Source: a virus. From it: 21,511 bases of DNA. Positions 6,613 to 21,511 of the stretch are shown here, piece by piece. Every line of letters begins with the position of its first letter. The first letter of the stretch is position 1. The notes beneath the pieces were generated by a model. The model made no database searches. It was not told the origin of the DNA and saw only the letters and a list, made by a program, of their open reading frames with translations. The stretch lies in the IMG/VR virus record IMGVR_UViG_3300008267_011546, positions 1-21,511 of that record; one strand, given 5' to 3'. The position numbers and the translations under genes are program-made.

Positions 6613-6867
6613 ATGAGAGAGCACTTTGCCCACCAATTTAAAGAAAATAAAATAGTTACACAAGAATCACTTGAAAAAGTAACCCTTAGAATGTATACTT
6701 CGGGAAGAGAAATTAAACCTGGTGAAATTATATTGTTTGCATTTACAAAGGATGATAAAAATAATGCTGAACTTATATGTTTACACGAGGAAGAACTCGA
6801 ACAATATGAATATGTACAATCACCAACTGAATTTATACCTGAAATTAAATTAAAACAAGTTATATGA
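6613..6867 (+). CDS. Small protein in glycan operon, unknown
   Basis: An 84-residue acidic protein of unknown family. It starts three bases after the glycosyltransferase stop and overlaps the next gene by four bases (ATGA), so it belongs to the operon. The central part has a beta pattern: KVTLRMYTSG, KPGEIILFAFTKDDKNN and AELICLHEEELEQYE. The GREIKPGEIILF segment hints at a small barrel. No signal peptide, membrane helix or catalytic motif is seen. Confidence 0.55.
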   Translation: MREHFAHQFKENKIVTQESLEKVTLRMYTSGREIKPGEIILFAFTKDDKNNAELICLHEEELEQYEYVQSPTEFIPEIKLKQVI

Positions 6868-8159: not shown

Positions 8160-8608
8160 CATCAACAGAAGAAATCATAATGTGTCCTAAATCAGGAGGG
8201 GATCTATGCTACAAAACCCAAATCAACCCAGAATTAGCAACTTACCTAAGTTTGTCTTGTGGGTTTTGGTCTAATAGTTTAATGAAGGAGGGAGAGGAAT
8301 TCTATGAACAACAGGTAGAAACTTTACCTGAGTTGTATAAAGATTTAGCTTGGACTGATCCTGAAACCGGTTTGATATGGCTTCCAAACACAATCAATCA
8401 CCCTGAACTTGGAATGGTATTTGCGTATGGCCCTAATGCTTCTAGTTGGGGTTGGGGAGCTGTTAAAGCAATTGAGATACCTGAGGGTGAAAGAAAAGAA
8501 CTAGCCGGTAAAATCCAAACCCACAAAATGGATATGTCAAATATGAAAGTTTTCGAAGAGCGTGACTATATTGAAGCTCTTTCTTATATTGGAGTATTAC
8601 CTGAGTAA
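8156..8608 (+). CDS. Conserved phage protein with degenerate zinc ribbon
   Basis: A 150-residue protein resembling a phage family I know only as hypothetical, marked by LMKEGEEFYEQQ (42-53), LPNTINHPELGMVFA and the ending YIEALSYIGVLPE. Relatives usually open with a CPxC...CxxCG zinc ribbon. Here the knuckles read CPKS (Cys10) and LSLSCG (Cys35), with Cys18 in DLCY, so two expected cysteines appear to be lost and zinc binding is doubtful. Met9 (base 8180) is an alternative start closer to family length, but the ATG at 8156 forms the ATGA overlap. Such genes also occur outside glycan clusters, so a direct glycan role is not implied. Confidence 0.6.
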   Translation: MTSTEEIIMCPKSGGDLCYKTQINPELATYLSLSCGFWSNSLMKEGEEFYEQQVETLPELYKDLAWTDPETGLIWLPNTINHPELGMVFAYGPNASSWGWGAVKAIEIPEGERKELAGKIQTHKMDMSNMKVFEERDYIEALSYIGVLPE

Positions 8609-8611
8609 AAT

Positions 8612-9232
8612 ATGAAAATAAGTTATGCAATTACAGTATGTCGAGAATTTGTAGAAATTCAGCGTTTAGTGCACTTTTTGCTTCAACACAAACGCCCACA
8701 AGACAATATTGTAATTTTATATGATGAAGCAAATGGTGATTCCGAAGTAGAAACATTTCTACGAGCCCACTCCATCAATGGAGAATTTGCTTGGTATAAA
8801 GCAAAATTCAATCGACACTTTGCAGACTGGAAGAATAAACTCTCCAGTCTGTGCAGTGGAGATTATATTTTCCAAATTGATGCTGATGAAATTCCTAACC
8901 AAACATTGATTGAATTACTCCCTCAAGTTATTGAAAATAATGATTTTGACATTTGTTTGGTACCAAGAGTAAACACAGTTGAAGGTATAACCCAAGAGCA
9001 CATTCAAAAATGGGGATGGAACGTAAATGAAAAAGGTTGGATAAATTGGCCTGATAGACAATGGAGGTTATACAGAAATTCACCCGAAATCAAATGGGAA
9101 AATAAAGTGCATGAGCGTTTAGTTGGATTTAAAACTTATACAAGTCTACCAGAGGTAGAAGAAATGGCTTTATATCATCCTAAAACAATTGAAAAACAAG
9201 AAAAACAAAATAAATTTTACAATGAAATATGA
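8612..9232 (+). CDS. GT2-like glycosyltransferase (GT-A)
   Basis: A 206-residue family-2-type glycosyltransferase. The N-terminal strand ISYAITVCREFVEIQRLV and the second strand NIVILYDEANGD are typical of GT-A enzymes. GDYIFQIDADEIP (83-95) carries the metal-binding DxD as DADE. WRLYRNSPEIKWENKVHERL (152-171) is the conserved C-terminal acceptor-side block of this subgroup, which includes LPS core and phage GT2 proteins. It is short but ends naturally, without a membrane anchor, so it is probably soluble. Donor and acceptor are unknown. Confidence 0.8.
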   Translation: MKISYAITVCREFVEIQRLVHFLLQHKRPQDNIVILYDEANGDSEVETFLRAHSINGEFAWYKAKFNRHFADWKNKLSSLCSGDYIFQIDADEIPNQTLIELLPQVIENNDFDICLVPRVNTVEGITQEHIQKWGWNVNEKGWINWPDRQWRLYRNSPEIKWENKVHERLVGFKTYTSLPEVEEMALYHPKTIEKQEKQNKFYNEI

Positions 9233-9402
9233 GCAATGAAGTTTATACTGATCTAGAAAATCAGATTATTAAAGAGAAACATGAAACTTTAAGAATGGAG
9301 GTTATAGAAATGCTTGTTAAAAAGTATCCAAATGATACTGATTTAGGCCAAGCTGTTAGAGAATTTACTAATATAAAAAAGGAAAATGAAAAATGTTTAT
9401 GA
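9229..9402 (+). CDS. Small acidic helical protein, unknown
   Basis: A 57-residue frame starting in the ATGA overlap with the GT2 gene and overlapping the next gene by 17 bases. MSNEVYTDLENQIIKEKHET opens a long amphipathic helix, then EMLVKKYPNDTDLGQAVREF. No family is recognised. The fit between two coupled genes, with no gap on either side, supports translation; the 17-base overlap is the longest in the operon. Confidence 0.5.
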   Translation: MSNEVYTDLENQIIKEKHETLRMEVIEMLVKKYPNDTDLGQAVREFTNIKKENEKCL

Positions 9403-10036
9403 TATAACAAACGAATTTGAAAAACGTTTAGCAGAATACACAGGAGCTCCTTATGTTGTTACTGTTGATAATCAATCAAATGGTCTATTTTTAGCTTTAT
9501 ATTACGAACACTACGTAAATAAAAGCATTACCTCAGAACATATTACTATCCCTTCAAGAACCTACCCTTCTGTTCCCTGTGAAATTATACACGCGGGTTT
9601 AAAAGTTAACTTTAGAAAAGTTAAAGGAAAAATATTAAAAGGAGCATACCAACTTGAAGGAAGTAATGTATGGGATTCTGCTTTATCTTTTACATCAGAC
9701 ATGTATAAACCTGGGGCTCATATGTGTATTTCATTCACTGGTCCATATAAACATTTTAAGTTATCTAAAGGTGGAGCTATTTTAACAGATAGCCATGAAG
9801 CTTATCTTTGGTTTAAAAGAGCAAGATATAGTGGTAGACGTGAATGTTCTTATCATGATGATAATTTTGATATGCTAGGGTGGAATTTTTATATGATGCC
9901 AGAATTAGCTGCTCGTGGATTGCTTTTAATGAACCAATTCTACCATGGCGAAACTCCAAAACAAAACCCCGATTTGGAAATGCCCTACCCAGATTTATCT
10001 AAATTTGAAATTTATACTAAAGGAAATAAAGAATGA
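9386..10036 (+). CDS. Short DegT/DnrJ/EryC1-type sugar aminotransferase
   Basis: PLP-dependent aminotransferase-like protein of the DegT/DnrJ/EryC1/StrS fold, which typically converts nucleotide-linked keto-sugars to amino-sugars. FEKRLAEYTGAPYVVTVDNQ (11-30) and ITIPSRTYPSVPCEIIHAG (53-71) are family hallmarks. Asp97 in VWDSAL corresponds to the PLP-nitrogen aspartate, and Lys122 in ISFTGPYKHF to the Schiff-base lysine, followed by KGGAILT. At 216 residues it is much shorter than the usual 360-400: the C-terminal small domain is nearly absent after residue 190. It may be a minimal phage form, or inactive. The frame is clean and coupled to WbqC by ATGA. Confidence 0.78.
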   Translation: MKNVYDITNEFEKRLAEYTGAPYVVTVDNQSNGLFLALYYEHYVNKSITSEHITIPSRTYPSVPCEIIHAGLKVNFRKVKGKILKGAYQLEGSNVWDSALSFTSDMYKPGAHMCISFTGPYKHFKLSKGGAILTDSHEAYLWFKRARYSGRRECSYHDDNFDMLGWNFYMMPELAARGLLLMNQFYHGETPKQNPDLEMPYPDLSKFEIYTKGNKE

Positions 10037-10734
10037 AGTTAGCTATAATGCAGCCATACTTTATGCCTTATATTGGTTATTTTCAATTAATAAATTCTGT
10101 AGATCAATTCATTATATATGATAATATCCAATATACTAAAAAAGGATGGATAAATAGGAATCGTATTTTAGTAAATGGAAAAGATCAACTTATTACTTTG
10201 TCTATTAAAAAAGACTCTGACTATTTAAATGTAGTAGAGAGAGAATTATCTGAATCGTGGGATAAAGATAAGAATAAAATGATTAATATAATCAAATCCT
10301 CTTATAGTAAATCCCCCCATTTCCAAGAAGTATCCGAGTTGCTATCTAAATGCCTTAACAACCCAGAAAAAAATCTATTTAAATTCATATATGACAGTAT
10401 TGTTTTAATAAATGATTATTTAGATATTAAAACACCTATTGTAATTTCTTCTTCTATAAATGCAGATCATACTTTGAAATCTCAAGATAAAGTCTTATCT
10501 TTATGTAAAGCACAAAATGCTAGCGTTTATATAAATTCTATAGGAGGAGTAGAATTGTATGACAAAACAACTTTTAAACAAAATGGAATTGAACTTAACT
10601 TTATTAAATCATATCCAATCAAATACAAACAATTTAATAATGAATTTGTTTCTTGGCTCTCAATTATAGATGTTATGATGTTCAACTCAAAAGAACAAAT
10701 ACAAGAATATTTAAATAAATACACTTTAGTATGA
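10033..10734 (+). CDS. wbqC: WbqC family protein
   Basis: A 233-residue WbqC-like protein (family typical of O-antigen and other surface polysaccharide clusters). The N-terminus is diagnostic: MKLAIMQPYFMPYIGYFQLI (1-20), then FIIYDNIQYTKKGWINRNRI (26-45). The length is normal for the family and the C-terminus is complete. The reaction is not firmly established; members are linked with modification of amino-sugars, so the adjoining aminotransferase and the acetyltransferase-methyltransferase fusion make a decorated amino-sugar a reasonable guess. It overlaps both neighbours by ATGA. Confidence 0.88.
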   Translation: MKLAIMQPYFMPYIGYFQLINSVDQFIIYDNIQYTKKGWINRNRILVNGKDQLITLSIKKDSDYLNVVERELSESWDKDKNKMINIIKSSYSKSPHFQEVSELLSKCLNNPEKNLFKFIYDSIVLINDYLDIKTPIVISSSINADHTLKSQDKVLSLCKAQNASVYINSIGGVELYDKTTFKQNGIELNFIKSYPIKYKQFNNEFVSWLSIIDVMMFNSKEQIQEYLNKYTLV

Positions 10735-11690
10735 AATGGAAAAAATTAGGACATATTTTTGATCCAACAGTATGGGTTGATGGAATTGATAGACCATGGA
10801 TGAAAACTCATTCACAATGTACTCATACTTTGGTTTTAGATGATGTTGTTAGAGTGTATTTTTCTTGTAGACCTGAAAATGATGAAAATGGATTTGCAAA
10901 ATCATACACGACATTTTTAGATCTAGACAAGAATGATCTAACTAAAATAATTAGAGTCTCAGATAAACCTATAATGTCTTTAGGTGAATTAGGAACATTT
11001 GATGAATTTGCTGTTTATCCTTCTAGCAATATAAAAGTAGATAATAAAATCCTATTCTACTATGCTGGGTGGACTCGCTGCCAATCAGTACCATTTAATA
11101 CCTCTATTGGTTTAGCAATAAGTGAAGATAATGGAGAAACATTTAAGCGAATAGGACCTGGCCCTATATTAGCAGCAGATATTCTTGAGCCGTTTGTCTT
11201 AAGTGGACCTAAAATTAGAAAATTTGGCCATACATGGTATTTATTTTATCTCGCAGGAACTAAATGGATTAACTACAATGGGAAACCCGAAATAGTATAC
11301 AAAAATAGGATGGCTATTTCTAAAGATGGAATTAAATGGGCTCGATTAAACAAAAATATTATCCCTGATGTATTAGATGAAAATGAATGCCAAGCAGGAC
11401 CTGATGTATTCTATAAAGACGAAATGTACCATATGTACTTTGTTTACAGAGAAGGTTTAGATTTTAGAACTGTACCTGGTAGAGGATATAAAATAGGATA
11501 CGCTACATCAACTGATTTAATTAATTGGGATCGTAAAGATGAAGAAGCAGGTATAGTATACTCGGAATCAGGTTGGGATAGTACAATGCATCATTATCCT
11601 CATGTGTTTGAAGTTAATGGGCAGCATTACATGACTTTTAATGGAAATGATTTTGGTAAATATGGTTTTGGATTAGCAATATTAGAATAA
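10731..11690 (+). CDS. GH43/GH130-like five-bladed beta-propeller protein
   Basis: A 319-residue protein of the glycosidase/phosphorylase beta-propeller superfamily. Five strand blocks repeat at near-regular intervals: VRVYFSCR (40-47), ILFYYAGW (107-114), WYLFYLAGTKW (169-179), MYHMYFVYRE (232-241) and HYMTFNGN (299-306). Acidic residues in DEFAVYPS (91-98), LEPFVLSGP (152-160) and CQAGPDVF (220-227) could line the central pocket. No signal peptide is seen, so it acts in the cytoplasm or on the particle. Propellers of this type in polysaccharide clusters may trim or transfer sugars. Exact family and substrate are uncertain. It starts by ATGA overlap and ends in a TAATG junction. Confidence 0.72.
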   Translation: MKWKKLGHIFDPTVWVDGIDRPWMKTHSQCTHTLVLDDVVRVYFSCRPENDENGFAKSYTTFLDLDKNDLTKIIRVSDKPIMSLGELGTFDEFAVYPSSNIKVDNKILFYYAGWTRCQSVPFNTSIGLAISEDNGETFKRIGPGPILAADILEPFVLSGPKIRKFGHTWYLFYLAGTKWINYNGKPEIVYKNRMAISKDGIKWARLNKNIIPDVLDENECQAGPDVFYKDEMYHMYFVYREGLDFRTVPGRGYKIGYATSTDLINWDRKDEEAGIVYSESGWDSTMHHYPHVFEVNGQHYMTFNGNDFGKYGFGLAILE

Positions 11691-12832
11691 TGGTTACAAC
11701 ATTAGAAGATATACAACAACATTTAAATAAATGTTCTCCAACATTTATTCCTTCATTAGATAGTTATGTTGATATAAACGAATACTCAAAAAAAATATAT
11801 GACAGTGCTGTAACGTTTAGTAAATTTAATCAAGATAATCTTATTGGACTAGTAGCGGCATATGATAACCCTACAGAAAAATTTGGGTGGATTACTAATG
11901 TTAGTGTTGATCCTGATTATTCTAAACAGGGGATTGCCTCCGAGTTATTAAATAGATGTTACAAATACTTTGAAAATAAAGGATACTTTAGTATATTTTT
12001 AGAAGTATTTTTAGATAATAAAAAAGCTATTAATTTATACACTAAACATGGATTTACTAAACATGAAATAAAAAAAAATAAAATGGTACTCAAACAAGAA
12101 ATTAACAGAAACTACAACCAAGAATTAAAAGACACCTCAGACCATAAGTATGCTTATAACTTTGATTTTGATGTGATGCATCACTATATGATAGAATCAT
12201 TTAAACACCATTTTGTTCAAGGAAATTGCCTTGAATTAGGGAGTTTTAAAGGTGATTTTACAAAACGTCTTATTCCTTATTTTGATAATATTACATGTGT
12301 GGAAGCATCTGATGAAGCTATTGAAATATCTAAACAAACTTTAGGCAATTGGGTTACTTATTATAATTCAACATTTGAAACTGTAAATTTACCTGAAAAA
12401 TATGACAATATTATCTTGACACATGTTTTAGAACATATTGATGATCCTGTAGAGTTACTTTCTAAAATTAAAAATGAATGGTTATCTGAAAATGGTAGAT
12501 TATTTTTAGTATGCCCCAATGCAAATGCCCCTTCAAGACAAATAGCAGTTAAAATGGGACTTATCACCCACAACTCAGCTATTACTCCTGCTGAAGCAAA
12601 GCATGGTCATAGAATCACTTATACTTTAGATACTCTAGAAAGAGATGCTAGAGGTGGGGGATTAAATGTTATCCACCGCTCTGGTATATTCTTTAAAGCA
12701 TTAGCTAATTTCCAGTGGGATCAGTTACTTAACACTGATATCATTAGTGAAGAATATTTAGATGGGTGTTTTCAATTAGGACAACAATACCCTGATCTAT
12801 GTTCAAGTATTATGTTGATTTGTAAAAAATGA
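11690..12832 (+). CDS. GNAT acetyltransferase fused to SAM methyltransferase
   Basis: A 380-residue two-domain protein. Residues about 1-138 are a GNAT N-acyltransferase: WITNVSVDPDYSKQGIASEL (67-86) contains the acetyl-CoA loop QxxGxA (Q80-A83), and NLYTKHGFTKHE closes the fold. Residues about 150-380 are a class I methyltransferase: CLELGSFKGDFT (180-191) is motif I, CVEAS (203-207) the acidic loop, and LTHVLEHIDDP (243-253) the post-II motif. The linker has no obvious stop remnant, so it is one gene. In a glycan cluster it could acylate an amino-sugar and O- or N-methylate the same product. The acceptor is unknown. Confidence 0.82.
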   Translation: MVTTLEDIQQHLNKCSPTFIPSLDSYVDINEYSKKIYDSAVTFSKFNQDNLIGLVAAYDNPTEKFGWITNVSVDPDYSKQGIASELLNRCYKYFENKGYFSIFLEVFLDNKKAINLYTKHGFTKHEIKKNKMVLKQEINRNYNQELKDTSDHKYAYNFDFDVMHHYMIESFKHHFVQGNCLELGSFKGDFTKRLIPYFDNITCVEASDEAIEISKQTLGNWVTYYNSTFETVNLPEKYDNIILTHVLEHIDDPVELLSKIKNEWLSENGRLFLVCPNANAPSRQIAVKMGLITHNSAITPAEAKHGHRITYTLDTLERDARGGGLNVIHRSGIFFKALANFQWDQLLNTDIISEEYLDGCFQLGQQYPDLCSSIMLICKK

Positions 12833-13737
12833 GAAATTTTGAAATAAATTTTATTGTTCATTCACCATCACCGATATATACCAATTATATTGGTGGATCT
12901 ATGGTTTGTCATAGTTTAGCTAATAATTTAGCTGAACTGGGGGAAAACTCATATATTTTAGCAGATTCTACCCATCCTAATTATAAAAGTACCCCTATTC
13001 CTTGGGGGACCCCCTTGTCATATGATAAAGAAAATACTATAGTAATATGCAGTGCGGGAGCGGATCATGTTTTTTCTTCTGATTCCTTTAAAAACATACA
13101 ATCAGTACCTAATTATGTAAGGTGGTTAATAGGAGATCAACAATACCATTATGATAAAGGTAACAAATTTTATAAATATTGTGATCATTTTATTCCATTT
13201 TCTTCACAAAAGGTAGATGGGGAATTTTTATCATTTGATGTTGACTTTACCTTATTTAAAAACCATAACACCCCCAGAAAAGGGAGTTGTTTTTTTTCTA
13301 AAGGACATAAAATTTTTACTACATATCATCCTCAAGATGCTATTGATTTATCCATAATGTATGATATGTTACCTGAAGACCGGGTAAAGTTTCTTGTTGA
13401 GATTTTTAACAAGGTGGAGAATTTTTATTTATATACTCATAGATCTTTTATTGCAGTATTGGCAGCACTATGTGGATGTAATGTTATTGTTTTTCCATAT
13501 ACCTGGGAAGGAGAGGAGATCCCATTAGAAAAGTTTGATAAAAAAGCATGGAAAGAATCTTTACCTACTTTTAAATATGGAATATCTTGTGGAATTGATG
13601 ATATTGAATGGTCATTAAAAACCATACATTTAGTTAAAAACAACATCATAGATGTACAATCCAAAGGAATTACAGATATAAAATCTTTCATAGATGATTG
13701 TTATTCCTGGTTAGAAGAAAAATATGATTTAAAATGA
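12829..13737 (+). CDS. Putative GT-B-like glycosyltransferase
   Basis: A 302-residue protein resembling diverged sugar transferases. IGGSMVCHSLANNLAELG (22-39) resembles the N-terminal acceptor loop of GT-B enzymes; TIVICSAGADHVF and VRWLIGDQQYHYD are further strand-loop elements. The second half has KIFTTYHPQDA and YTHRSFIAVLAALCGCNVIV, where TH-S and the following helix sit where the donor-binding region is expected, but I see no clean EX7E motif. Several short Gly/Asp loops are present, with no membrane segment. Position between methyltransferase and another glycosyltransferase supports the role; the family call is moderate. Confidence 0.55.
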   Translation: MRNFEINFIVHSPSPIYTNYIGGSMVCHSLANNLAELGENSYILADSTHPNYKSTPIPWGTPLSYDKENTIVICSAGADHVFSSDSFKNIQSVPNYVRWLIGDQQYHYDKGNKFYKYCDHFIPFSSQKVDGEFLSFDVDFTLFKNHNTPRKGSCFFSKGHKIFTTYHPQDAIDLSIMYDMLPEDRVKFLVEIFNKVENFYLYTHRSFIAVLAALCGCNVIVFPYTWEGEEIPLEKFDKKAWKESLPTFKYGISCGIDDIEWSLKTIHLVKNNIIDVQSKGITDIKSFIDDCYSWLEEKYDLK

Positions 13738-14420
13738 AACTTAACATATATTACCGCCACTCATCTACTAATAATATAGGAAGACAAAGACCCTATTGGT
13801 TCAGCTATGAAAATTGTTTTAAAAACCTACTTAAAACTATAGAAGGCTATAATAATATTAAGTTAACTTTAGCTTTAGATGGAGATATAAATCAAGATTT
13901 TACTAAAAATTACCAAGATAAGTTTACTTTATTTTCTACTAATTACCAATCAAGTTTACTTTCGTATAGAGCTCTTTTAGACCATATTAAAGAACAATCT
14001 ATGGAATCTAATGAGTTAATTTATTTTTTAGAAAATGATTATTTGCATGTTGATGGTTGGGTGGAAAAAATAATTGAACTGTATTCTACATTTTCTAATA
14101 TAGATTATGTTTCATTGTATGATCATAATGATAAGTATTTTTTACCAATGTATGATGATTTAGTATCTAAAGTAATAGCAGCATTTTCTCATCATTGGAG
14201 AACAACTCCTAGTACTTGTGGAAGTTTTATAATCACTAGAAAAGTATTTGATCAAGACTATGATATTTGGTCAACAACTGTTGGAGACCATAATACTTTT
14301 TTATATCTTAATGAAAATAGAAGTAGATTTGTACTTACCCCAATTCCTGGTCTATCAACTCACTGTATGGAAGGATTAATGAGCCCATGTATTGATTGGG
14401 AAAAAATAAACCAAATATAA
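13734..14420 (+). CDS. GT-A-like glycosyltransferase
   Basis: A 228-residue protein with GT-A features. MKLNIYYRHSSTNNIGRQRP begins the first strand, and KLTLALDGD (43-51) resembles the second. YFLENDYLHVDGWVEKI (97-113) holds the DxD-equivalent as ENDY, followed by the usual helix. SHHWRTTPSTCGSFIITRKV matches a conserved downstream block, and LSTHCMEGLMSPCIDWE ends the protein. Such proteins occur in phage and bacterial surface glycan clusters. Donor and acceptor are unknown. It starts by ATGA overlap and ends six bases before the next gene, the only small gap in this part of the operon. Confidence 0.65.
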   Translation: MKLNIYYRHSSTNNIGRQRPYWFSYENCFKNLLKTIEGYNNIKLTLALDGDINQDFTKNYQDKFTLFSTNYQSSLLSYRALLDHIKEQSMESNELIYFLENDYLHVDGWVEKIIELYSTFSNIDYVSLYDHNDKYFLPMYDDLVSKVIAAFSHHWRTTPSTCGSFIITRKVFDQDYDIWSTTVGDHNTFLYLNENRSRFVLTPIPGLSTHCMEGLMSPCIDWEKINQI

Positions 14421-14426
14421 ATAATA

Positions 14427-15050
14427 ATGAATAAACTAGAAATTATCGTAAACCACCTTTACCAATGGCCCTCAGATATAAATGAACATATCCCTACCTT
14501 AATTAAATATGGCTCAGAATGCAACCATATCACAGAAATGGGAGTTAGATGGATAACTTCGACATGGGCATTTTTAGGATCAGCCCCAGAAAAACTTATT
14601 AGCTATGACATGGAATACCCATCATTATGGGGAAAAGATAGCCAACATATGTCAGCAGACGCAGTATCTCGAGGATACAATACTTTAGAAGAAGTATATG
14701 AAGTTGCTCAAGAGTTTAATATTGGATATGAATTTATAAAAGCTAATGTTCTTGATGTAGAAATTGAACAAACAGACTTATTATTTTTAGATACCTGGCA
14801 TTCATATAAACAACTTAAAGCTGAGCTTTCTCTTCACTCCTCAAAAACCAATAAATACATTATATTTCATGATACCACATCATATGCTACTTATGATGAA
14901 ACCAACTACGAAATCCTAGGCCCAGAATGGAAAGCCGAAGGAATAGGAATATGGAGAGCCATAGAAGAATTCCTTAATACTCACCCAGAATGGGAACTAA
15001 TTGAGCGATTCCACAACAACAATGGATTAACTATTATAGGAAAAGTATGA
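14427..15050 (+). CDS. Class I methyltransferase-like / cephalosporin hydroxylase-like protein
   Basis: A 207-residue Rossmann-fold protein. ITEMGVRWITSTWAFL (35-50) is in the position of a SAM-binding motif I but is atypical; YDMEYP (60-65) follows as the acidic loop, and LLFLDTWHSYKQLKAEL (118-134) with YIIFHDTTS (144-152) match the pattern seen in Methyltransf_24 and cephalosporin-hydroxylase-like enzymes, where Asp and His bind metal. It probably methylates a sugar hydroxyl, but the loose glycine motif leaves the cofactor uncertain. It overlaps the next gene by ATGA. Confidence 0.62.
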   Translation: MNKLEIIVNHLYQWPSDINEHIPTLIKYGSECNHITEMGVRWITSTWAFLGSAPEKLISYDMEYPSLWGKDSQHMSADAVSRGYNTLEEVYEVAQEFNIGYEFIKANVLDVEIEQTDLLFLDTWHSYKQLKAELSLHSSKTNKYIIFHDTTSYATYDETNYEILGPEWKAEGIGIWRAIEEFLNTHPEWELIERFHNNNGLTIIGKV

Positions 15051-15256
15051 TATCTGTAATCATCCCAACATATAAATCACCGGATGCTTTAGATTTATGT
15101 TTACGTTCTGCAATTGAAGGACAACAAAACAAAAACCAAATTATAGTTGTAGTTGATGGTTTTTACGATATAAACAAAGAAGTACTTGAAAAATGGTCTG
15201 AACATATTGATGTTTTAAATTTAGAGGAAAACCTCGCTTTTGGGATACAACATTAG
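15047..15256 (+). pseudogene. GT2 glycosyltransferase, N-terminal part (disrupted)
   Basis: First third of a family-2 glycosyltransferase. ISVIIPTYKSPDALDLCL (2-19) is the classic GT2 opening and IIVVVDGFYD (32-41) the second strand. After LEENLAFG the frame ends IQH and a stop, while the neighbouring frame continues as WDTTLEDDWQEGAVISP from base 15241. Relatives normally have a stretch here containing the DDN/DxD metal-binding motif. That stretch is missing, so neither fragment can be a working enzyme. The break resembles that in the GT gene at 5283. Confidence 0.62.
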
Positions 15257-15717
15257 AGGATGATTGGCAAGAAGGAGCAGTAATATCACCTAACCAAATT
15301 GAGCCTTATCCTTCAATGTTTAGACAATTTATTATAGAGGATCTTGGAACGGACCCAAAAACATTTGACCTAGAGCAATTTTGGTTATTTGATTACCACT
15401 ATGCCTCTGGTGGTAAAGTGGAGGAATGCGGCTCTACATTACCTATCTTTATGTCCAAAATAGATTATTTGAAAGTTGGAGGGTGGGATGAAAATTATGA
15501 TTTAGGAATGGTAGCGGATTGGGATTTCTTTTTAAAATGTCAATTAAGTGGACTTAAAATGATTCGAACATGGAATTGCCATTTTTACCATTTTGCCTCG
15601 GTATCCACTAATGGAGAAAAAAGACAACAAGCAGAGCAAAACGGACATATGTATGCCAAATATAAATGGGGGACTCATATCAAGCACAATCCTTTAACAA
15701 ATTTAAAATTTTTATAG
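15238..15717 (+). pseudogene. GT2 glycosyltransferase, C-terminal part (disrupted)
   Basis: C-terminal part of the gene started at 15047, in another frame. FWDTTLEDDW (from 15238) leads to SPNQIEPYPSMFRQF and then FMSKIDYLKVGGWDENYDLG, the GT2 GGWDE-type acceptor block with a probable catalytic acid, and VADWDFFLKCQLSG, a typical ED-like helix. The first ATG in this frame is at 15316, but homology clearly begins before it. The sequence is undecayed up to its stop. It is the last gene of the glycan operon. Confidence 0.62.
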
Positions 15718-15722
15718 AAGAC

Positions 15723-15751
15723 TTGTCTCTTAAAAAAATCTTTTGTATATT
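15723..15751 (+). promoter_or_regulatory. Sigma70-like promoter candidate
   Basis: TTGTCT (15723-15728), exactly 17 bases, TATATT (15746-15751), with an expected start about 11 bases before the ATG at 15769. It lies between the glycan operon and a new gene block. It shares TTTTGTAT(A/C)TT and a GTTATG start context with the nuclease promoter region (3617-3636), and a similar form with the region before 18145. Confidence 0.5.
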
Positions 15752-15768
15752 GATAAAAATTAAAAGTT

Positions 15769-15927
15769 ATGAAAGTTTATATTTATTATAGCAAATTTGA
15801 TTCTAAAAAAGAACCACAAGGAAAAGTTAAGGCAAGTAACCTACAAGAAGCTATTCATTTAATATCCCAAATCAAGCAATTAGATCAAAACGAATTTCTT
15901 CAAATATTTGAAATCAAAGAAATTTAA
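15769..15927 (+). CDS. Small protein, unknown
   Basis: A 52-residue frame beginning MKVYIYYSKFDSKKEPQGKV and ending FLQIFEIKEI. It is the first gene after the 15723 promoter candidate and ends three bases before the next ATG. The beta-strand start (KVYIYYS), the helix SNLQEAIHLISQI and the final strand suggest a tiny alpha/beta fold of the type seen in phage inhibitors and adaptor proteins. No family is recognised. Confidence 0.55.
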   Translation: MKVYIYYSKFDSKKEPQGKVKASNLQEAIHLISQIKQLDQNEFLQIFEIKEI

Positions 15928-15930
15928 ACT

Positions 15931-16314
15931 ATGATTATGGATGTGCATATTAATAATCTAGAAACCTTTGCAGGAAAAGGAGTAAATGTCACTGAAAATA
16001 AAAAATCAGTTGCTAAAAGAGATAAAAAATTCTTTGTATCAATGGTTGATACTCTTTCCAAATTAGATGAGCGTTCAAACGCTCTAATGGATCTTGGGAT
16101 TGATCTTATAAGATATGAAGACCCATACTTTCAGCTAATAGAAAACCTAATTTTAAGAACTTACGGCCCTTTAAAAGGGGGAATTATTTTATGGTGGTGT
16201 GGAGAAAGAAAATTGTTAGATGTTAAAATGTACAACATGGTGGATGAAAATGGAAATGGTACCGTTATCTCAAATGTAAATCAATTATATAATTACCTAA
16301 ATAAATTAAAATAA
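15931..16314 (+). CDS. Phage protein, unknown
   Basis: A 127-residue protein; starts at 15931 or 15937 (Met3, MDVHINN) are equally possible. The N-terminal 30 residues are charged, then helices KFFVSMVDTLSKLDER and LMDLGIDLIRYEDPYFQLIE, and a C-terminal region ILWWCGERKLLDVKMYNMVD with a final asparagine-rich helix. WWCGERK and the conserved look of the central helix suggest a real family, but I cannot assign it. It is followed within six bases by a DksA-like zinc finger, so both may share regulation. Confidence 0.6.
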   Translation: MIMDVHINNLETFAGKGVNVTENKKSVAKRDKKFFVSMVDTLSKLDERSNALMDLGIDLIRYEDPYFQLIENLILRTYGPLKGGIILWWCGERKLLDVKMYNMVDENGNGTVISNVNQLYNYLNKLK

Positions 16315-16319
16315 AAGTT

Positions 16320-16598
16320 ATGAAGTGTATTCACTGTCAAGAGGAGATTAATCCCCTACGTTTAAAAGCATTGCCGGGAACTAAAACATGTGTAGATTGT
16401 TCTACAACAGGAGCCAAAAAAGGTATTATTGTTACATTAGGAGAAAAAGATCACACGTGTAATGAGGTTATGTTTTTAGAAGATGACCAATATGAAAAAT
16501 ATTTAAAGTCCCAAAAGAAAGCAAGATTTGATAAAATAGAGGAACACGATGAAGAACCCCCTAAACTTAATCTTAACAATTTAGACGAAGAGGAATAA
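16320..16598 (+). CDS. DksA/TraR-type zinc finger protein
   Basis: A 92-residue protein with a C4 zinc finger at its N-terminus: Cys3, Cys6, Cys24 and Cys27 give CxxC-x17-CxxC, the exact spacing of DksA/TraR fingers, with RLKALPGTKTCVDC as the typical second half. The long coiled-coil that carries DksA into the RNA polymerase secondary channel is absent, so effects on polymerase are uncertain. A further Cys47 lies in KDHTCNEV. The tail (55-92) is rich in Asp/Glu and Lys. It overlaps the next gene by one base (TAATG). TraR-like small proteins are known on phages and plasmids. Confidence 0.72.
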   Translation: MKCIHCQEEINPLRLKALPGTKTCVDCSTTGAKKGIIVTLGEKDHTCNEVMFLEDDQYEKYLKSQKKARFDKIEEHDEEPPKLNLNNLDEEE

Positions 16599-17248
16599 TG
16601 CCTAAAAGAAGAGATTTTACCAAAACAGAAATTTTAAATGCTATGGCTAAGACCAAATCGGTTAAAGCAGCAGCAAGGTATCTAAACTGTTCATACCAGC
16701 ATTTAAAACCTTGGATGAAATTTTACAAAGACGAGGAAACCGGTTTAACTCTATTTGAGCTACACAAAAACCAAAGTGGAAAAGGCATTCCAAAATTTAT
16801 TAAAGAATCTAACTTTAAAAGAAAAGAACCAGCCATTTTAGATATTGTAGAGGGAAGAGTAGATGCATCGCATTGGAGCCCTGAAAAACTAAAATATAGA
16901 ATGGTTGAAGCAGGTTTAATAGAGGAGTGTTGTGGTAACTGTAATTTTAGAGAAAGACGTGTAACAGATTATAAAATGCCTCTTATATTGCATTTTAAAG
17001 ATGGAAACACAAAACACTATGGGTTAAACAATGTTCAACTACTTTGCTATAACTGTTATTTTTTATTTTATGGTCAAGTATTTACTGAAAAGGAAATACA
17101 AAAACTTGAGGGGCACGGTTCAGTTACTATGAAAATAGAGGAGGAAAAATTGAAACTAGATGATTATCAAATGAAAATGTTACGCGAGTTGGGACTACAC
17201 AATGATGATGACAGTGATGATCCTTATTCGCTAGTATCTTATAAATAA
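16598..17248 (+). CDS. HTH plus degenerate HNH/treble-clef protein
   Basis: A 216-residue putative DNA-binding protein. Residues 8-40 (TKTEILNAMAKTKSVKAAAR, then YLNCSYQHLKPWM) form a helix-turn-helix. Residues 111-155 have a treble-clef pattern: CCGNC (111-115), LILHFKDGN (129-137), LNNVQLLCYNCYFLF (143-157). It matches HNH spacing, but the second His of the usual HH pair is Phe133 and the final His is Tyr154, so nuclease activity is doubtful. I have seen similar proteins in uncultured T4-like phages annotated as HNH endonucleases. A role as a phage regulator is an inference. The acidic C-terminus (DDDSDDPY) is notable. Confidence 0.65.
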   Translation: MPKRRDFTKTEILNAMAKTKSVKAAARYLNCSYQHLKPWMKFYKDEETGLTLFELHKNQSGKGIPKFIKESNFKRKEPAILDIVEGRVDASHWSPEKLKYRMVEAGLIEECCGNCNFRERRVTDYKMPLILHFKDGNTKHYGLNNVQLLCYNCYFLFYGQVFTEKEIQKLEGHGSVTMKIEEEKLKLDDYQMKMLRELGLHNDDDSDDPYSLVSYK

Positions 17249-17265
17249 TCCTTTAATATTTATAA
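17239..17265. repeat. Inverted repeat TTATAAATA / TATTTATAA with upstream motif copy 3
   Basis: A perfect 9-base inverted repeat (17239-17247 and 17257-17265) with a 9-base spacer, spanning the stop of the HTH/HNH gene. The right arm is part of ATATTTATAA (17256-17265), four bases before the ATG at 17270. The left arm contains TATAAATA, the T4 late -10 box, but inside coding sequence. The arms are pure A/T, so a stable hairpin is unlikely; a two-sided protein or sigma site is possible. Confidence 0.4.
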
Positions 17266-17269
17266 GTGA

Positions 17270-17425
17270 ATGAAAAGCAAAAAACATAACAAGATTGTCA
17301 AAGATTACGATAAGCAAAAATCCAAACATTTGGAGCGCTTGGCAGATCAAATCTTGAAGAATGATGAAAAGTTACAACAATTGAAGGGGAAAGAAATTGA
17401 CCCCGGGTTTTTAAAACTATTTTAG
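17270..17425 (+). CDS. Small basic helical protein, unknown
   Basis: A 51-residue frame between motif copy 3 and the next gene (one-base gap). KSKKHNKIVKDYDKQKSKHL and LADQILKNDEKLQQL form long charged helices, ending KEIDPGFLKLF. The end resembles a short linear tail that could dock into a partner. No family is recognised. Tight spacing and the shared upstream motif support it as a real gene. Confidence 0.55.
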   Translation: MKSKKHNKIVKDYDKQKSKHLERLADQILKNDEKLQQLKGKEIDPGFLKLF

Positions 17426-17426
17426 T

Positions 17427-17750
17427 ATGACAAAGATGGAAGAATTTTCAGTTAACAACAGTGAGGAATTCGAAAAAATGGTCGAAAAAGGAGACATTCG
17501 AATTGCCAAAGCTCTTGTAGGAACTATCCTCTCTAACCTTAAAGGGAGAAAACGCCATATCCCAGCACTTTCAGTTTTTCTGGAGGAAGAGGAGTTGGTG
17601 TTGGATGTAACTGTAGATAGACAAGATTTTATATATGTTTTAGAAACTAATTTACCAAAATTTGAAGTACACGAATTGTATGAAGAATGTGCTGAAATAG
17701 TTAAGGCTATAAAGTATCTGAAAGAAACAGAAGATAAGAAGAAAAAATAA
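17427..17750 (+). CDS. Phage protein, unknown
   Basis: A 107-residue acidic protein of unknown family. Helix EFEKMVEKGDIRIAKALVGT (14-33) is followed by GRKRHIPALSVFLEEEELVL, a strand VDVTV-like region and a long C-terminal helix ELYEECAEIVKAIKYLKETE. The clear alpha/beta order suggests a folded domain. It shares an exact stop-start junction with the beta-rich protein that follows, so it may be cotranscribed with virion genes. Confidence 0.58.
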   Translation: MTKMEEFSVNNSEEFEKMVEKGDIRIAKALVGTILSNLKGRKRHIPALSVFLEEEELVLDVTVDRQDFIYVLETNLPKFEVHELYEECAEIVKAIKYLKETEDKKKK

Positions 17751-18089
17751 ATGGCATCCTACACTTACCAACAATTATATGGAACTGGCTCTGTTGGAGA
17801 AAATCTAGCAGGCACAAAGACATTCACCTTTACAAACCCATCAGCATCCTCTTACTTTACAATGGAGACAGTAAGAAATAATCAAGGGTTTTATGATTCA
17901 ACATCCCCCACTAATTTTATAGGAACATATAGTGTTTCTGAATCTATGAATCTAGTTACATCTTCTTATATTGCTTCAATAGTAGTACAACCAGGTGTAT
18001 CTTCATTTACATTTGCTCCTTCATCTGCTATAACAGGAACTACATATTATTTAAGGGGAACAGGAATGTATTCTCTAGTGATTGTTTAA
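17751..18089 (+). CDS. Small beta-rich candidate virion protein
   Basis: A 112-residue protein starting directly after the previous stop, with composition unlike its neighbours: rich in Ser, Thr, Tyr and Gly, poor in Lys and Glu. MASYTYQQLYGTGSVGE, FTFTNPSASSYFTMETVRN, YIASIVVQPGVSSFTFAP and YYLRGTGMYSLVIV read as about eight strands with turns, as in small head-decoration or fibre proteins. I recall similar MxxYTYQQLYG proteins in uncultured phages, without a firm function. The neutral, low-cysteine composition suits a particle exposed outside cells. Confidence 0.62.
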   Translation: MASYTYQQLYGTGSVGENLAGTKTFTFTNPSASSYFTMETVRNNQGFYDSTSPTNFIGTYSVSESMNLVTSSYIASIVVQPGVSSFTFAPSSAITGTTYYLRGTGMYSLVIV

Positions 18090-18106
18090 AGAAGGAATAG
18101 TCTTCT
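18090..18106 (+). terminator. Weak hairpin after the candidate virion gene
   Basis: AGAAG (18090-18094) and CTTCT (18102-18106) pair around a seven-base loop, followed by AAAATTTTCTTT rather than a clean T run. It overlaps the -35 box of the next promoter candidate. It could be a weak terminator but is not convincing. Confidence 0.22.
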
Positions 18107-18126
18107 AAAATTTTCTTTCGTATATT
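18098..18126 (+). promoter_or_regulatory. Sigma70-like promoter candidate
   Basis: TAGTCT (18098-18103), 17 bases, TATATT (18121-18126), with a start expected about 12 bases before the ATG at 18145. The -10 and the TTTCGTATATT context resemble the candidate at 15723; the -35 is weaker. Confidence 0.4.
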
Positions 18127-18144
18127 CAAGCAAATAAAAAGGTT

Positions 18145-18597
18145 ATGTTATTTGAACTACATTTAGAATTTAAAGACGGCAGCATAAAAACAACGATTGT
18201 TACCGCAGAAGAAACTAAAATATACCCACAACGCGATAATATTGTACATTCAGGCTGTAAGCGCTTTAAATACAAAGTAGATAAACACAACGTACTTCCA
18301 AAAACAATAGTTCGCTTTACAAACAAAACTATGATATACCCAGCAGGTATAGAATGTCATCCTCAAACAACATTAGAGGATATAGAGGAAATTCTTACAG
18401 AACAGCAAGTAGCTGAAATCAAAGCAGAGTTACCTCCACCACCACAATTAAAATCATGGAAATTTGAATCCGCTAGTGGAGGAGGAACATACACCGTTAA
18501 GGAAACTAAAAATGGATTTTTGCGTTGTGATTGTCCGGGAGTATGGAGAGCCAAAGATAGAAAATGCAAGCACATCAAAGAAGTAGAAAACCAATAA
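18145..18597 (+). CDS. SWIM zinc finger protein
   Basis: A 150-residue protein ending in a SWIM zinc finger. Cys128, Cys130, Cys141 and His143 in LRCDCPGVW and KCKHIKEV give CxC-x10-CxH, the pattern used for nucleic acid or protein binding. The N-terminal 65 residues form a strand-rich domain (LFELHLEFKDGS, KTTIVTAEETKIY, KTIVRFTNKTMIY); a proline stretch PPPPQLKSW (97-105) joins it to the finger. Similar small SWIM proteins occur in T4-like phages without known function. No catalytic residues are evident. It has its own promoter candidate. Confidence 0.72.
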   Translation: MLFELHLEFKDGSIKTTIVTAEETKIYPQRDNIVHSGCKRFKYKVDKHNVLPKTIVRFTNKTMIYPAGIECHPQTTLEDIEEILTEQQVAEIKAELPPPPQLKSWKFESASGGGTYTVKETKNGFLRCDCPGVWRAKDRKCKHIKEVENQ

Positions 18598-18606
18598 TAT
18601 GTATAA
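18597..18606 (+). promoter_or_regulatory. ATATGTATAA upstream motif, copy 4
   Basis: One base differs from ATATTTATAA. It overlaps the last base of the SWIM stop codon and ends six bases before the ATG at 18613. The overlapping TATAAATA (18602-18609) equals the T4 late box, but lies too close to the start codon for normal T4-like geometry. Confidence 0.35.
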
Positions 18607-18612
18607 ATAAAG

Positions 18613-18828
18613 ATGAACCTAAATACATTACGTAAACTTGTTAAAGAGGAATTATCAAAAGTTTTAAATCAAGGTACATTCCATAATGGAGAAAAAGTAT
18701 TATATAATGATAATGTATATTTAGTTAAATCAGATGGAGGTAATATTGGAGTTGAGATTGTGGGGGATGATGGGAAAACTATTTTAGTAAGACGAAATTT
18801 TGTAACTCGAATAGAAGAAGAAAATTAA
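18613..18828 (+). CDS. Small protein with LRKLVKEEL module and SH3-like barrel
   Basis: A 71-residue protein. MNLNTLRKLVKEELSKVL (1-18) is nearly the same as the N-terminus of the next gene (MNLDALRKIIKEELIKKM), while the bodies differ, again a shared N-terminal module. Residues 25-67 (GEKVLYNDNVYLVKSDG, then NIGVEIVGDDGKTILVRRN) have the strand pattern of a KOW/SH3-like barrel. The KEEL turn is acidic and could be a targeting or cleavage segment. Function unknown. Confidence 0.6.
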   Translation: MNLNTLRKLVKEELSKVLNQGTFHNGEKVLYNDNVYLVKSDGGNIGVEIVGDDGKTILVRRNFVTRIEEEN

Positions 18829-18837
18829 TATTTACAA
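18828..18837 (+). promoter_or_regulatory. ATATTTACAA upstream motif, copy 5
   Basis: Nine of ten bases match ATATTTATAA. It overlaps the last base of the preceding stop codon, as at 1417 and 18597, and lies 16 bases before the ATG at 18854. Confidence 0.35.
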
Positions 18838-18853
18838 ATAAAATAAAAACAAA

Positions 18854-19192
18854 ATGAATTTAGATGCACTACGTAAAATTATCAAAGAAGAATTGATTAA
18901 AAAAATGAATGGAGCAGACCCGAATAAGCCACGATATAATATAGGTGGGTTGGAAGATAATTCTATCAATGGGACTATAAAACTCCTTAACGATTCCCCA
19001 GAACTAGTCCAAGATATGGAAGTTCAAAAAGCTTTAAAGATGGTATTAAGACAACTTGATTTAAAGACTCTTCAAAACCTAAACAGGGCTATCAAAAATC
19101 AAACAGGAAAAGTTTCCCCACCCACTAAAAGTGATACAGAAGATACTGCAAAAATGGCAGACATAGAAAAATATGGCTCTAGAGGGCTTTAA
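18854..19192 (+). CDS. Protein with LRKIIKEEL module, unknown
   Basis: A 112-residue protein sharing its first 18 residues with the previous gene (12 of 18 identical). After a short linker (NGADPNKPRYNIGG), the body is helical: NGTIKLLNDSPELVQDMEVQ and MVLRQLDLKTLQNLNRAIKN, then a Ser/Thr/Lys-rich disordered tail ending SRGL. No family is recognised. It is the last gene before a terminator, next to candidate virion genes; a small virion or core protein is a guess. Confidence 0.58.
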   Translation: MNLDALRKIIKEELIKKMNGADPNKPRYNIGGLEDNSINGTIKLLNDSPELVQDMEVQKALKMVLRQLDLKTLQNLNRAIKNQTGKVSPPTKSDTEDTAKMADIEKYGSRGL

Positions 19193-19216
19193 AAAACATA
19201 ACATAACAAAATATAG

Positions 19217-19242
19217 AAAACTGCTCTCGGGCAGTTTTTTTT
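19217..19242 (+). terminator. Rho-independent terminator
   Basis: AAAACTGC (19217-19224), loop TCTCGG, GCAGTTTT (19231-19238), then TTTT to 19242. The eight-pair stem and T run make a good intrinsic terminator 24 bases after the previous stop. It separates the phage small-gene block from the secreted-protein block. Confidence 0.85.
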
Positions 19243-19256
19243 ATCCTTGGAAATTT

Positions 19257-19298
19257 CATTAGACCCGCCTACGGGAAAACCATTAGACTTGCATACGG
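19257..19298 (+). repeat. Two-copy direct repeat upstream of the protease promoter
   Basis: CATTAGACCCGCCTACGG (19257-19274) and CATTAGACTTGCATACGG (19281-19298) agree at 15 of 18 bases with a 24-base period. They lie in noncoding DNA just upstream of a -35 box at 19305. Such spacing suits binding by a dimeric regulator on one DNA face, which is inferred; it could also be a leftover duplication. Confidence 0.6.
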
Positions 19299-19304
19299 TA
19301 TATA

Positions 19305-19333
19305 TTGTAGATCACCCACTTGCACGATATAAA
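19305..19333 (+). promoter_or_regulatory. Sigma70-like promoter candidate for the protease
   Basis: TTGTAG (19305-19310), 17 bases, TATAAA (19328-19333), predicting a 5' leader of about 60 bases before the ATG at 19400. It lies between the direct repeat and motif copy 6, and is not in the Bacteroidota TTTG/TAnnTTTG form. Confidence 0.4.
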
Positions 19334-19359
19334 ATTAGGGGGTTAATGGTTGGTTTATT

Positions 19360-19369
19360 TTATTTATAA
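19360..19369 (+). promoter_or_regulatory. TTATTTATAA upstream motif, copy 6
   Basis: Nine of ten bases match ATATTTATAA, 30 bases before the protease ATG. Its presence links the secreted protease to the phage transcription programme and argues against a phage-host boundary in the gap. Confidence 0.35.
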
Positions 19370-19399
19370 GCGAATAAATTATAAACCAAAAAATAAAAA

Positions 19400-21358
19400 A
19401 TGAAAAGTTTAATTTTAATTAGTTTTGTTACAATAGCATCAATTGCTGGGTTTTCTCAAAAAAGTGTTATGTGGGCAACAGTCGAAAATGTAGAGGTTTT
19501 AAATAACCTAAATGTAAAATTTAAAAAAGCATTCCCTTCATCTCGTCAAAAATCTCTCCAAAATGTTTATGAATTTACTTGCGATTGTAACGAAGCAGAT
19601 TTATACACATCTTTACATAGAATTTCTGGGATTGCAGGGATTGAATATGGCCCAAAATACCAAACACTTTCCACTCCAAATGATTATTCAATTTATGGTT
19701 CTGATTATGCTCTTGGTTTAATCAATGCCCCACAAGCATGGTCTATTACAACAGGTGACCCAAGCATTACCATAGCAATTTCAGATGCAAACTATTATAT
19801 TTACCATGAAGAATTAGCTGGAAAATTAGAATATATTTCACCTGATAATTTTAGTGCTGATTATACACACGGAACAGCAGTAGCAATTGTAGCAGCAGGA
19901 AATACAAATAATGGTACTGGAAAAAGCTCAATTGGATACAATTCACATTTGCAATTGAGAGTTATGGATTATAATGAAATATTAAATGCAACATATTCCG
20001 GAGCAAAAATCATAAATGTTAGCTGGGCTTCAGGATGTCACAACAGCTATTACGCACAACAAGTAATTGATGAAGCATATAATAATGGTTCAGTAATTGT
20101 TGCAGCAGCAGGAAATGGTGGAACATGTGGTGGAGCAAGCAATTTAGTTTACCCAGCTTCACTGAACCATGTAATTTCAGTTACCTCTGTTGGCCCAAAC
20201 AAAAACCATGAAAGAACAATTGGAAATCCTTCCACTACACATCAACATAACTCATTAGTTGATCTATCAGCTCCAGGATATGATATGTTGCTATCTCCAT
20301 CACCTGGACAATACATTACAAGTAGTGGATCATCATTTGCTGCTCCTACAGTATCTGGAACAATTGCTCTTATGCTCTCAGTTAACAAATGTTTAACACC
20401 TGATCAAATTGAATATATTTTAAAATCAACTGCAGATTCAACAATGTATCAATCAAACCAAAATTATACAGGTTTACTTGGAGCAGGAATAATAGATGCT
20501 TATAAAGCAGTTGAAATGGCAAAACGATTCAACACATTTCAAGCAGAATTAAAAACAAACGTTAGCTGTGATTTATCTAAAAGACAAGCAAATATAGTAA
20601 ATATTAACGGTCAACTTCCATTAACATTTAAATGGTCAAATGATTTAACAACGGATAAAATAGAAATTGATACTACCAATTTTTACAGCGTTGAAGTAAC
20701 AGATAATGCGGGTTGTAAATTTTATGCTGGAAGGGAAATTGAAATCTATAATGAAATGAATGTTCAATCTGATATCAACCATATTACATGTTTTGGTTTA
20801 GATAACGGATCTATAAATGTACAAACCACAGGTGGGGATTCTACATACACTTACTATTGGTCAACAGGAGATATGCAAAATAACCTTACAAATCTAAAAC
20901 CAGGACAATATGTTTTGAACGTAATGGATAATGCAGGGTGTGTTAAAACAGAAACATACACAATTTTCCAACCAGAATTACTAGTTACAAGTTTAAACTA
21001 CACTCAACCAACACAAGCAACATTTGGCTCAATTGATCTAAACGTTATTGGTGGAGCTCAACCATACACATATAATTGGAATCATGGTGAAACAAGTGAA
21101 GATTTAAACAATGTAGTTGCTGATTTCTATGAAGTGCTAGTAACAGATGCAAACGGATGTATGTCTTCTGAAAATGTAATTTTAAACAACGCTCCAATTC
21201 AAACAGCAGGAATTATAGATTTGATGGAAAATACAAATGCTAACAATTCAATAGTATTGGATTTAAATGGAAAACAAGTTAATATAGATCAAGCAACCAC
21301 AGGATACTATTTGATAGTAGAAAATGGAAAAGTAACACGTAAAATATATAAAAACTAA
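19400..21358 (+). CDS. Secreted subtilisin-like (S8) protease with SprB-like repeats and T9SS-like C-terminus
   Basis: A 652-residue secreted serine protease. Residues 1-20 are a Sec signal peptide (hydrophobic core, GFSQ end as in Bacteroidota). A prodomain-like region follows to about 95. The S8 domain (about 105-375) has Asp129 (IAISDANY), His157 (YTHGTAVA), Asn239 (AAAGNGG) and Ser312 (SGSSFAAPTVSG), so the catalytic set is intact. Residues about 385-600 hold three Ig-like units; the middle one (ITCFGLDNGSINVQTTGG to GQYVLNVMDNAGC) is a SprB-type repeat. The last 40 residues (LDLNGKQV, GYYLIVENGKVTRKIYKN) resemble a type A T9SS sorting signal, though shorter than usual. It is preceded by its own terminator, repeat and promoter candidates. 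Host surface proteins or a competing phage could be substrates; this is speculation. Confidence 0.85.
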   Translation: MKSLILISFVTIASIAGFSQKSVMWATVENVEVLNNLNVKFKKAFPSSRQKSLQNVYEFTCDCNEADLYTSLHRISGIAGIEYGPKYQTLSTPNDYSIYGSDYALGLINAPQAWSITTGDPSITIAISDANYYIYHEELAGKLEYISPDNFSADYTHGTAVAIVAAGNTNNGTGKSSIGYNSHLQLRVMDYNEILNATYSGAKIINVSWASGCHNSYYAQQVIDEAYNNGSVIVAAAGNGGTCGGASNLVYPASLNHVISVTSVGPNKNHERTIGNPSTTHQHNSLVDLSAPGYDMLLSPSPGQYITSSGSSFAAPTVSGTIALMLSVNKCLTPDQIEYILKSTADSTMYQSNQNYTGLLGAGIIDAYKAVEMAKRFNTFQAELKTNVSCDLSKRQANIVNINGQLPLTFKWSNDLTTDKIEIDTTNFYSVEVTDNAGCKFYAGREIEIYNEMNVQSDINHITCFGLDNGSINVQTTGGDSTYTYYWSTGDMQNNLTNLKPGQYVLNVMDNAGCVKTETYTIFQPELLVTSLNYTQPTQATFGSIDLNVIGGAQPYTYNWNHGETSEDLNNVVADFYEVLVTDANGCMSSENVILNNAPIQTAGIIDLMENTNANNSIVLDLNGKQVNIDQATTGYYLIVENGKVTRKIYKN

Positions 21359-21389
21359 TAATAAATTAACCCTTAAAAACAAAAACAAA

Positions 21390-21511
21390 ATGAAAACAAT
21401 TATCACAACAATCGCAACAGTAATTTTAACATTAACAGCAACAGCTCAAAAAGTTTATCCACTTACAGGAACAGTTAGTATGCTTCAACCAACTTGTAAT
21501 GGATATTCAAA
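21390..21511 (+). CDS. Secreted protein, N-terminus only (cut by window end)
   Basis: The frame from ATG 21390 stays open to the window edge (40 codons). MKTIITTIATVILTLTATAQ is a clear Sec signal peptide with an ATAQ cleavage end, followed by KVYPLTGTVSMLQPTCNGYS. The A-rich leader (AAAAACAAAAACAAA) resembles that of the protease gene. It starts 31 bases after the protease stop, so the two are probably cotranscribed. The mature function cannot be seen. Confidence 0.65.
   Translation, partial: MKTIITTIATVILTLTATAQKVYPLTGTVSMLQPTCNGYS

Follow-up and report, generated by a model that had tools for sequence, protein, structure and literature searches.

A complete gene for an S8 subtilase lies towards the end of the window analysed here, an entire IMG/VR record of 21,511 bases, and on balance we favour the reading that a T4-like phage sends this protease, which would be host-derived, out via Sec and the host type IX secretion system (T9SS) by means of a shortened C-terminal domain (CTD). 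The concept of phage-encoded T9SS cargo is known; what is new is a widespread family of phage proteases together with a phage-specific minimal signal that is missed by current models. The gene and its product are laid out as follows:

19400 to 21358, + strand: complete S8 subtilase gene, an uninterrupted ORF of 652 aa
19400 to 19459, + strand: putative Sec signal peptide, about residues 1-20, MKSLILISFVTIASIAGFSQ; a hydrophobic leader is present in all relatives
19460 to 19699, + strand: probable inhibitory propeptide, about residues 21-100; AlphaFold2 pLDDT 77-90 at residues 21-80
19703 to 20524, + strand: catalytic domain, aligned with solved subtilases
19784 to 19786, + strand: Asp129 of the catalytic domain
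19868 to 19870, + strand: His157 of the catalytic domain
20114 to 20116, + strand: Asn239 of the catalytic domain
20333 to 20335, + strand: Ser312 of the catalytic domain
20552 to 21199, + strand: SprB-repeat region, two stretches (Pfam SprB; best E 1.4e-15 when this part is searched)
21242 to 21355, + strand: putative shortened T9SS type A-like CTD, last 38 aa, NNSIVLDLNGKQVNIDQATTGYYLIVENGKVTRKIYKN; conserved in phage relatives, with support from hhalign and three predicted strands
21390 to 21511, + strand: second signal-peptide gene, MKTIITTIATVILTLTATAQKVYPLTG..., assigned from sequence

By its sequence the gene encodes an intact S8 protease, and proteolysis is predicted. The Pfam model Peptidase_S8 covers residues 124-349 of the window protein (E 1.6e-26) and scores 93.7 bits against a curated cut-off of 21.8. 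The four residues on which a preliminary description of this DNA had based an intact subtilase (Asp129, His157, Asn239 and Ser312) were correct: they are invariant in 16 of 16 aligned relatives and align with the D, H, N and S motifs of the solved protease AK.1, and the Asp-His-Ser triad and the oxyanion Asn are all present. The AlphaFold2 model of the whole protein is modest overall (pLDDT 51). Its comparison with pro-subtilisins gave a Foldseek E of 2.9e-13, with unprocessed pro-subtilisin E (3whi) as top match, which suggests the propeptide listed above. The signal peptide and the SprB-like repeat of the earlier description also stood, since MKSLILISFVTIASIAGFSQ reads by eye as a Sec signal and the repeat is recognised in the window subtilase by Pfam at E 2.6e-12; bacterial homologues have such repeats, whereas the main phage clade is without them. 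The same holds for the second signal-peptide gene downstream, whose ORF starts at 21390 and is cut off by the contig end.

The subtilase gene is almost certainly phage-borne, in agreement with the preliminary description: 30 viral contigs carry it, most of them with gp23. A scan of IMG/VR yielded 32 loci, 30 of which were counted as family members (a few being short fragments), with exclusion of L032, which holds a different subtilase (31%), and of L033, which matched to the repeats only. The family contains near-duplicate contigs and represents about 15 distinct proteins, and the identity of these IMG/VR relatives to the window is mostly 50-56% over the protease part, with a typical value of about 54%. 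The T4 major capsid protein gp23 was found above its cut-off in 27 of the 30 related records; the 21.5-kb window itself has none. In L002 the gene order is terminase, portal, prohead protease, scaffold, gp23 and, directly 3', the subtilase, where gp23 was identified by model score and the preceding four were named by eye. Moreover, dN/dS in the main phage clade is about 0.1 (0.08-0.15 in most pairs), and it is 0.06-0.14 for the catalytic part in most phage pairs; the low values in the main clade imply that the gene is maintained by selection. Among the INPHARED phage records there was no full-length relative, only remote S8 proteases. In L003 a 146-aa ORF that resembles a gp23 fragment (15371-15811) lies about 4 kb from the protease gene, and these pieces are the only gp23 matches on that contig.

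The position directly after gp23, together with a weak match to a Hoc-like PHROG (E 8.8e-4), might be taken to indicate that the protease is a component of the head or of the capsid surface. We consider this extremely improbable, because a Sec signal would remove the protease from the cytoplasm, where heads assemble, and the Hoc-like match falls on the SprB repeats that are absent from the main phage clade.

The window has a phage context of its own, in the following segment:

6864 to 18828, + strand: phage genes in the same order as on two viral contigs, L124 (102 kb, with gp23) and L125 (63 kb)

This segment is largely collinear with both contigs, many genes showing 75-94% identity, and the collinearity ends after 18828. 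No subtilase was found in the examined stretches of L124 and L125, and there was no second contig that spans the junction 18828-19400. A few kb further on, other large proteins with signal peptides are encoded in L125, L126 and L128. The L125 and L128 proteins have a short tail of the KYVNLMGQEV type, and the C-terminus of the one in L126 is cut by the locus end. Exported proteins at these three loci imply a variable region in this phage group that encodes such proteins, and the window version of it holds the protease.

The region before the gene has three elements:

19217 to 19242, + strand: terminator-like hairpin, inverted repeat I2, assigned from sequence
19335 to 19343, + strand: leader element TTAGGGGGT, common to phage relatives, 64-87 nt before the start codon
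19350 to 19389, + strand: 9-bp leader stem TTGGTTTAT / ATAAACCAA, before the start codon

The element TTAGGGGGT sits 65 nt before the start of the window subtilase. Exact copies number 17 in 1.46 Mb of viral loci, almost all of them preceding the subtilase gene, and none occurs in 152 kb around bacterial homologues; as the element was chosen after the leaders had been seen, this rarity should be taken as a pointer, short of a clean test. At the position of the window stem, most phage relatives have one with a different sequence. The tag, TTAGGGGGT and the leader stem are features that the window has in common with the phage clade. The tree groups 15 phage copies in one clade (100/99) and places the window protease on a long branch beside bacterial sequences, but monophyly of all phage copies was not rejected (AU p 0.104). 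The window copy may be an early branch that retained the SprB repeats; alternatively, the protease part may have recombined with bacterial versions in phages. Bacterial homologues were found, as any match at E<=1e-50, in 54 of 249 Flavobacteriales genomes, and those of similar layout with full CTDs occur in a minority of Flavobacteriales genomes.

The branching of the protease part beside bacterial sequences, the bacterial-type SprB repeats, the location of the gene at the contig end and the stop of collinearity after 18828 would also be expected if the contig end were chimeric, with flavobacterial chromosome misjoined to phage DNA from about 19243. However, the 38-aa tag, TTAGGGGGT and the leader stem are common to the phage copies and not to the bacterial homologues, monophyly of the phage copies is compatible with the AU result, and related contigs carry other exported proteins downstream. 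A misjoin is therefore very unlikely in our view, since the phage tag and the leader element, both recognised at the level of sequence, speak against it.

Some of the flanking signals proposed earlier did not hold. The hairpin that had been taken as the gene's own terminator precedes the subtilase and hence ends the upstream gene. The repeat was confirmed, as two 18-nt copies at 19257 and 19281. A phage motif resembling ATATTTATAA is not above chance. More specifically, the T4-type late promoter TATAAATA was rejected as a candidate: 9 sites were counted versus 5.5 expected, 9 of 100 shuffles were as high, the 19361 copy has the minus orientation, and the 150-base leaders of the relatives contain no late-promoter motif. 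The leaders of L002, L009/L010, L012, L013, L021 and others have TTAGGGG-type elements common to all, and just before the start a stem of 7-9 bp whose sequence varies (TCTATTGGT/ACCAATAGA, TCTATTGTT/AACAATAGA, TTGGTTTAT/ATAAACCAA); these elements and the stem rank near the top among 131 ORF leaders.

The phage tail is most plausibly a shortened CTD of type A. Phage copies with the end present, except L025 and L027, have about 38 conserved C-terminal residues, in which D7, G10, G21, Y23, I35 and K37 are invariant and the motifs B (G), D (GxY) and E (basic) are closely spaced at the extreme C-terminus. The tag is preceded by SprB repeats in the window or by a Gly/Asn-rich linker in the main clade, and since it follows such differing upstream parts it behaves as a module. 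Its profile matches one further phage protein, an unrelated one of 229 aa, at the very C-terminus (L009/L010, E 1.6e-9). A comparison with 28 ordinary type A CTDs, drawn from two flavobacterial genomes, aligned the tag, in register, to the last third of these domains (hhalign probability 84), and the score of 27.9 beat 200 of 200 column shuffles, the best of which reached 18.8. For the last 60 residues AlphaFold2 predicted strands at 25-28, 43-49 and 52-59, with a pLDDT of about 91 over the last 30. A profile search of the PDB with the tag returned two sequences at E<=10, one being the T9SS cargo HBP35, matched in its CTD at E 1.1, which is not significant alone; Foldseek gave no significant match for the 60-aa C-terminus, HBP35 ranking fourth with E 2.7. 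The T9SS targeting signal of HBP35 has been localised to its last 22 residues (PMC11285876), and motif B is also required in RgpB (PMC11969387).

The T9SS-type C-terminus of the preliminary description was borne out only in part, as a shortened CTD and not as a match to the standard models: the proposed HMM check returned neither TIGR04183 nor PF18962 at the window C-terminus, also when thresholds were relaxed. The description had listed such an outcome as one part of a refutation, but as a test this was too narrow, because the tag appears to be a short CTD. A weak TIGR04183 match (E 0.018) was discarded as a C-terminal signal, as it falls in the repeat region, away from the end. L025 and L027 have a YPNP-type domain at the same place (PF18962 25-28 bits, cut-off 27), and the bacterial homologues end in full, longer CTDs. 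In 150 Flavobacteriales genomes, a sample that leaves absence unproven, no comparable tag was found (best E 9.8e-4). With this shortened CTD the protein would indeed seem to be built for the T9SS of Bacteroidota, as had been supposed, and export of the window protease by this route is likely. The further statement that phages rarely carry such proteins is true for the literature found and fails for this phage group, in which T9SS-like tails, full or shortened, occur on several unrelated proteins.

On the preferred reading, a phage of Flavobacteriales-type bacteria would carry an S8 protease of host origin that is exported by Sec and then by the host type IX system, with the CTD of about 38 aa as signal. 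The host T9SS may cleave or anchor the exported protease, the zymogen would be activated after export, and the infected cell probably displays or releases the protease at its surface. There it could trim surface proteins (adhesins, receptors) of the infected cell, so that rival phages as well as progeny would adsorb less to infected cells and debris; a role in freeing nutrients or matrix has less in its favour. For the phage protease our best guess is action at the surface (receptor shaving, superinfection exclusion or virion release), surface shaving as such being a tentative assignment. Mutants of Flavobacterium johnsoniae in gldD and gldG, which are linked to motility and the T9SS, are more resistant to phages (PMC5682007). 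This indicates that T9SS-linked surface products matter for adsorption, and a protease acting there could limit superinfection and progeny loss.

The same mutant phenotype (PMC5682007), the presence of the tag on unrelated phage proteins and its being shorter than host tags would also suit a decoy, in which the short CTD binds PorV, competes with host cargo and dampens the T9SS, protease activity being secondary. Fewer of the surface adhesins that other phages use would then be the outcome. We judge both the decoy and this outcome decidedly unlikely, as the catalytic part is, by dN/dS, under strong purifying selection, which would be needless for a mere decoy. It is likewise unlikely that the protease, once exported, breaks down extracellular protein or matrix and thereby feeds the infected cell or helps virions to get out. 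The bacterial homologues resemble secreted degradative subtilases with SprB repeats, and other phage T9SS cargo is carbohydrate-active (PMC7468147); the gene, however, lies with head genes in most records and looks more like a gene of the infection cycle.

For a broader version of the preferred reading we would put the chances slightly below even: Flavobacteriales phages may have evolved their own minimal T9SS tag on unrelated surface effectors, including the protease family beside the capsid gene, by which infected cells rebuild their surface via host secretion. If true, phages routinely use a host-specific outer-membrane secretion route to change the surface of the infected cell, phage effectors missed by standard T9SS models can be found, and a natural T9SS signal of very small size, 38 aa, becomes available for studying the needs of PorV and PorU.

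Phage-encoded T9SS cargo has already been reported for Cryophage (Nat Commun 2020, PMC7468147). As far as the accessible part of that report goes, the likeness lies in secreted enzymes with T9SS type A sorting domains, whereas the cargo there, an endoglucanase and proteins of the GH39 and PA14 kinds, is detected with the standard domain, and neither a subtilase nor a shortened tag is mentioned. In crAss-like phages, T9SS sorting-domain proteins have been described beside head genes (Viruses 2019, PMC6949934); those are BACON-domain proteins, whereas here a protease occurs in T4-like phages. The closest counterpart of the tag is formed by the short CTDs of Prevotella intermedia, which are 40-55 aa long, with motifs B, D and E close together and one sheet of three strands (Open Biol 2025, PMC11969387). 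They support cleavage and glycan linkage, and according to the authors no species other than P. intermedia has been reported to have long as well as short CTDs (PMC11969387). The spacing of B (G), D (GxY) and E (basic) and the predicted three-stranded sheet are alike; the cargo there is that of an oral anaerobe with cleavage and glycan attachment shown, whereas the phage tags are about 38 aa and known from sequence and model. The T9SS subtilases of Flavobacteriales (e.g. in two Fluviicola-like genomes) likewise have a signal peptide, an S8 domain and often SprB repeats, but their type A CTD is the full YPNP form, about 75 aa long, where the phage copies are mostly shortened. The S8 proteases of the Bacillus and Moorella phages SP-15, vB_BcoS-136 and MTATph1 are also phage-borne, but have Gram-positive hosts and 26-30% identity over the catalytic part only, with no full-length match.

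Several further observations concern the exported proteins of these phages. The 229-aa protein of L009/L010 (9863-10552) is an SprB-type secreted protein encoded between gp23 and the protease gene, and its gene has the same leader stem as the latter. In L025 (4254-11437; the contig has 176 kb) and on the L027 contig, clusters of T9SS-type cargo adjoin the protease gene and hold proteins with type B (TIGR04131) and type A (PF18962) CTDs. The Gly/Asn-rich linker GNNGHGNDEDGVDDSNPGQG of the main-clade phage subtilases (e.g. residues 391-446 in L013) is strongly conserved, often with a dN/dS below 0.1, which is unusual for a plain linker, and it might bind calcium. A second phage family, of large secreted proteins, ends in KYVNLMGQEV...G.VIEVYDDG..RK.IR, with a motif spacing that matches the protease tag; parts of it match uncultured phage genomes of 634-636 kb. 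Its members are:

L003, 11824 to 13578, - strand: second secreted family
L012, 7950 to 9971: second secreted family
L013, 11588 to 14239: second secreted family
L015, 11657 to 13648: second secreted family
L128, 13546 to 15639: second secreted family

Scans of the window gave no Rfam match and no tRNA. Between 5283 and 15717 it encodes glycosyltransferases, a DegT-type aminotransferase, WbqC-like and GH130-like proteins and an acetyltransferase-methyltransferase fusion, and this run of sugar-related genes suggests glycan modification by the phage.
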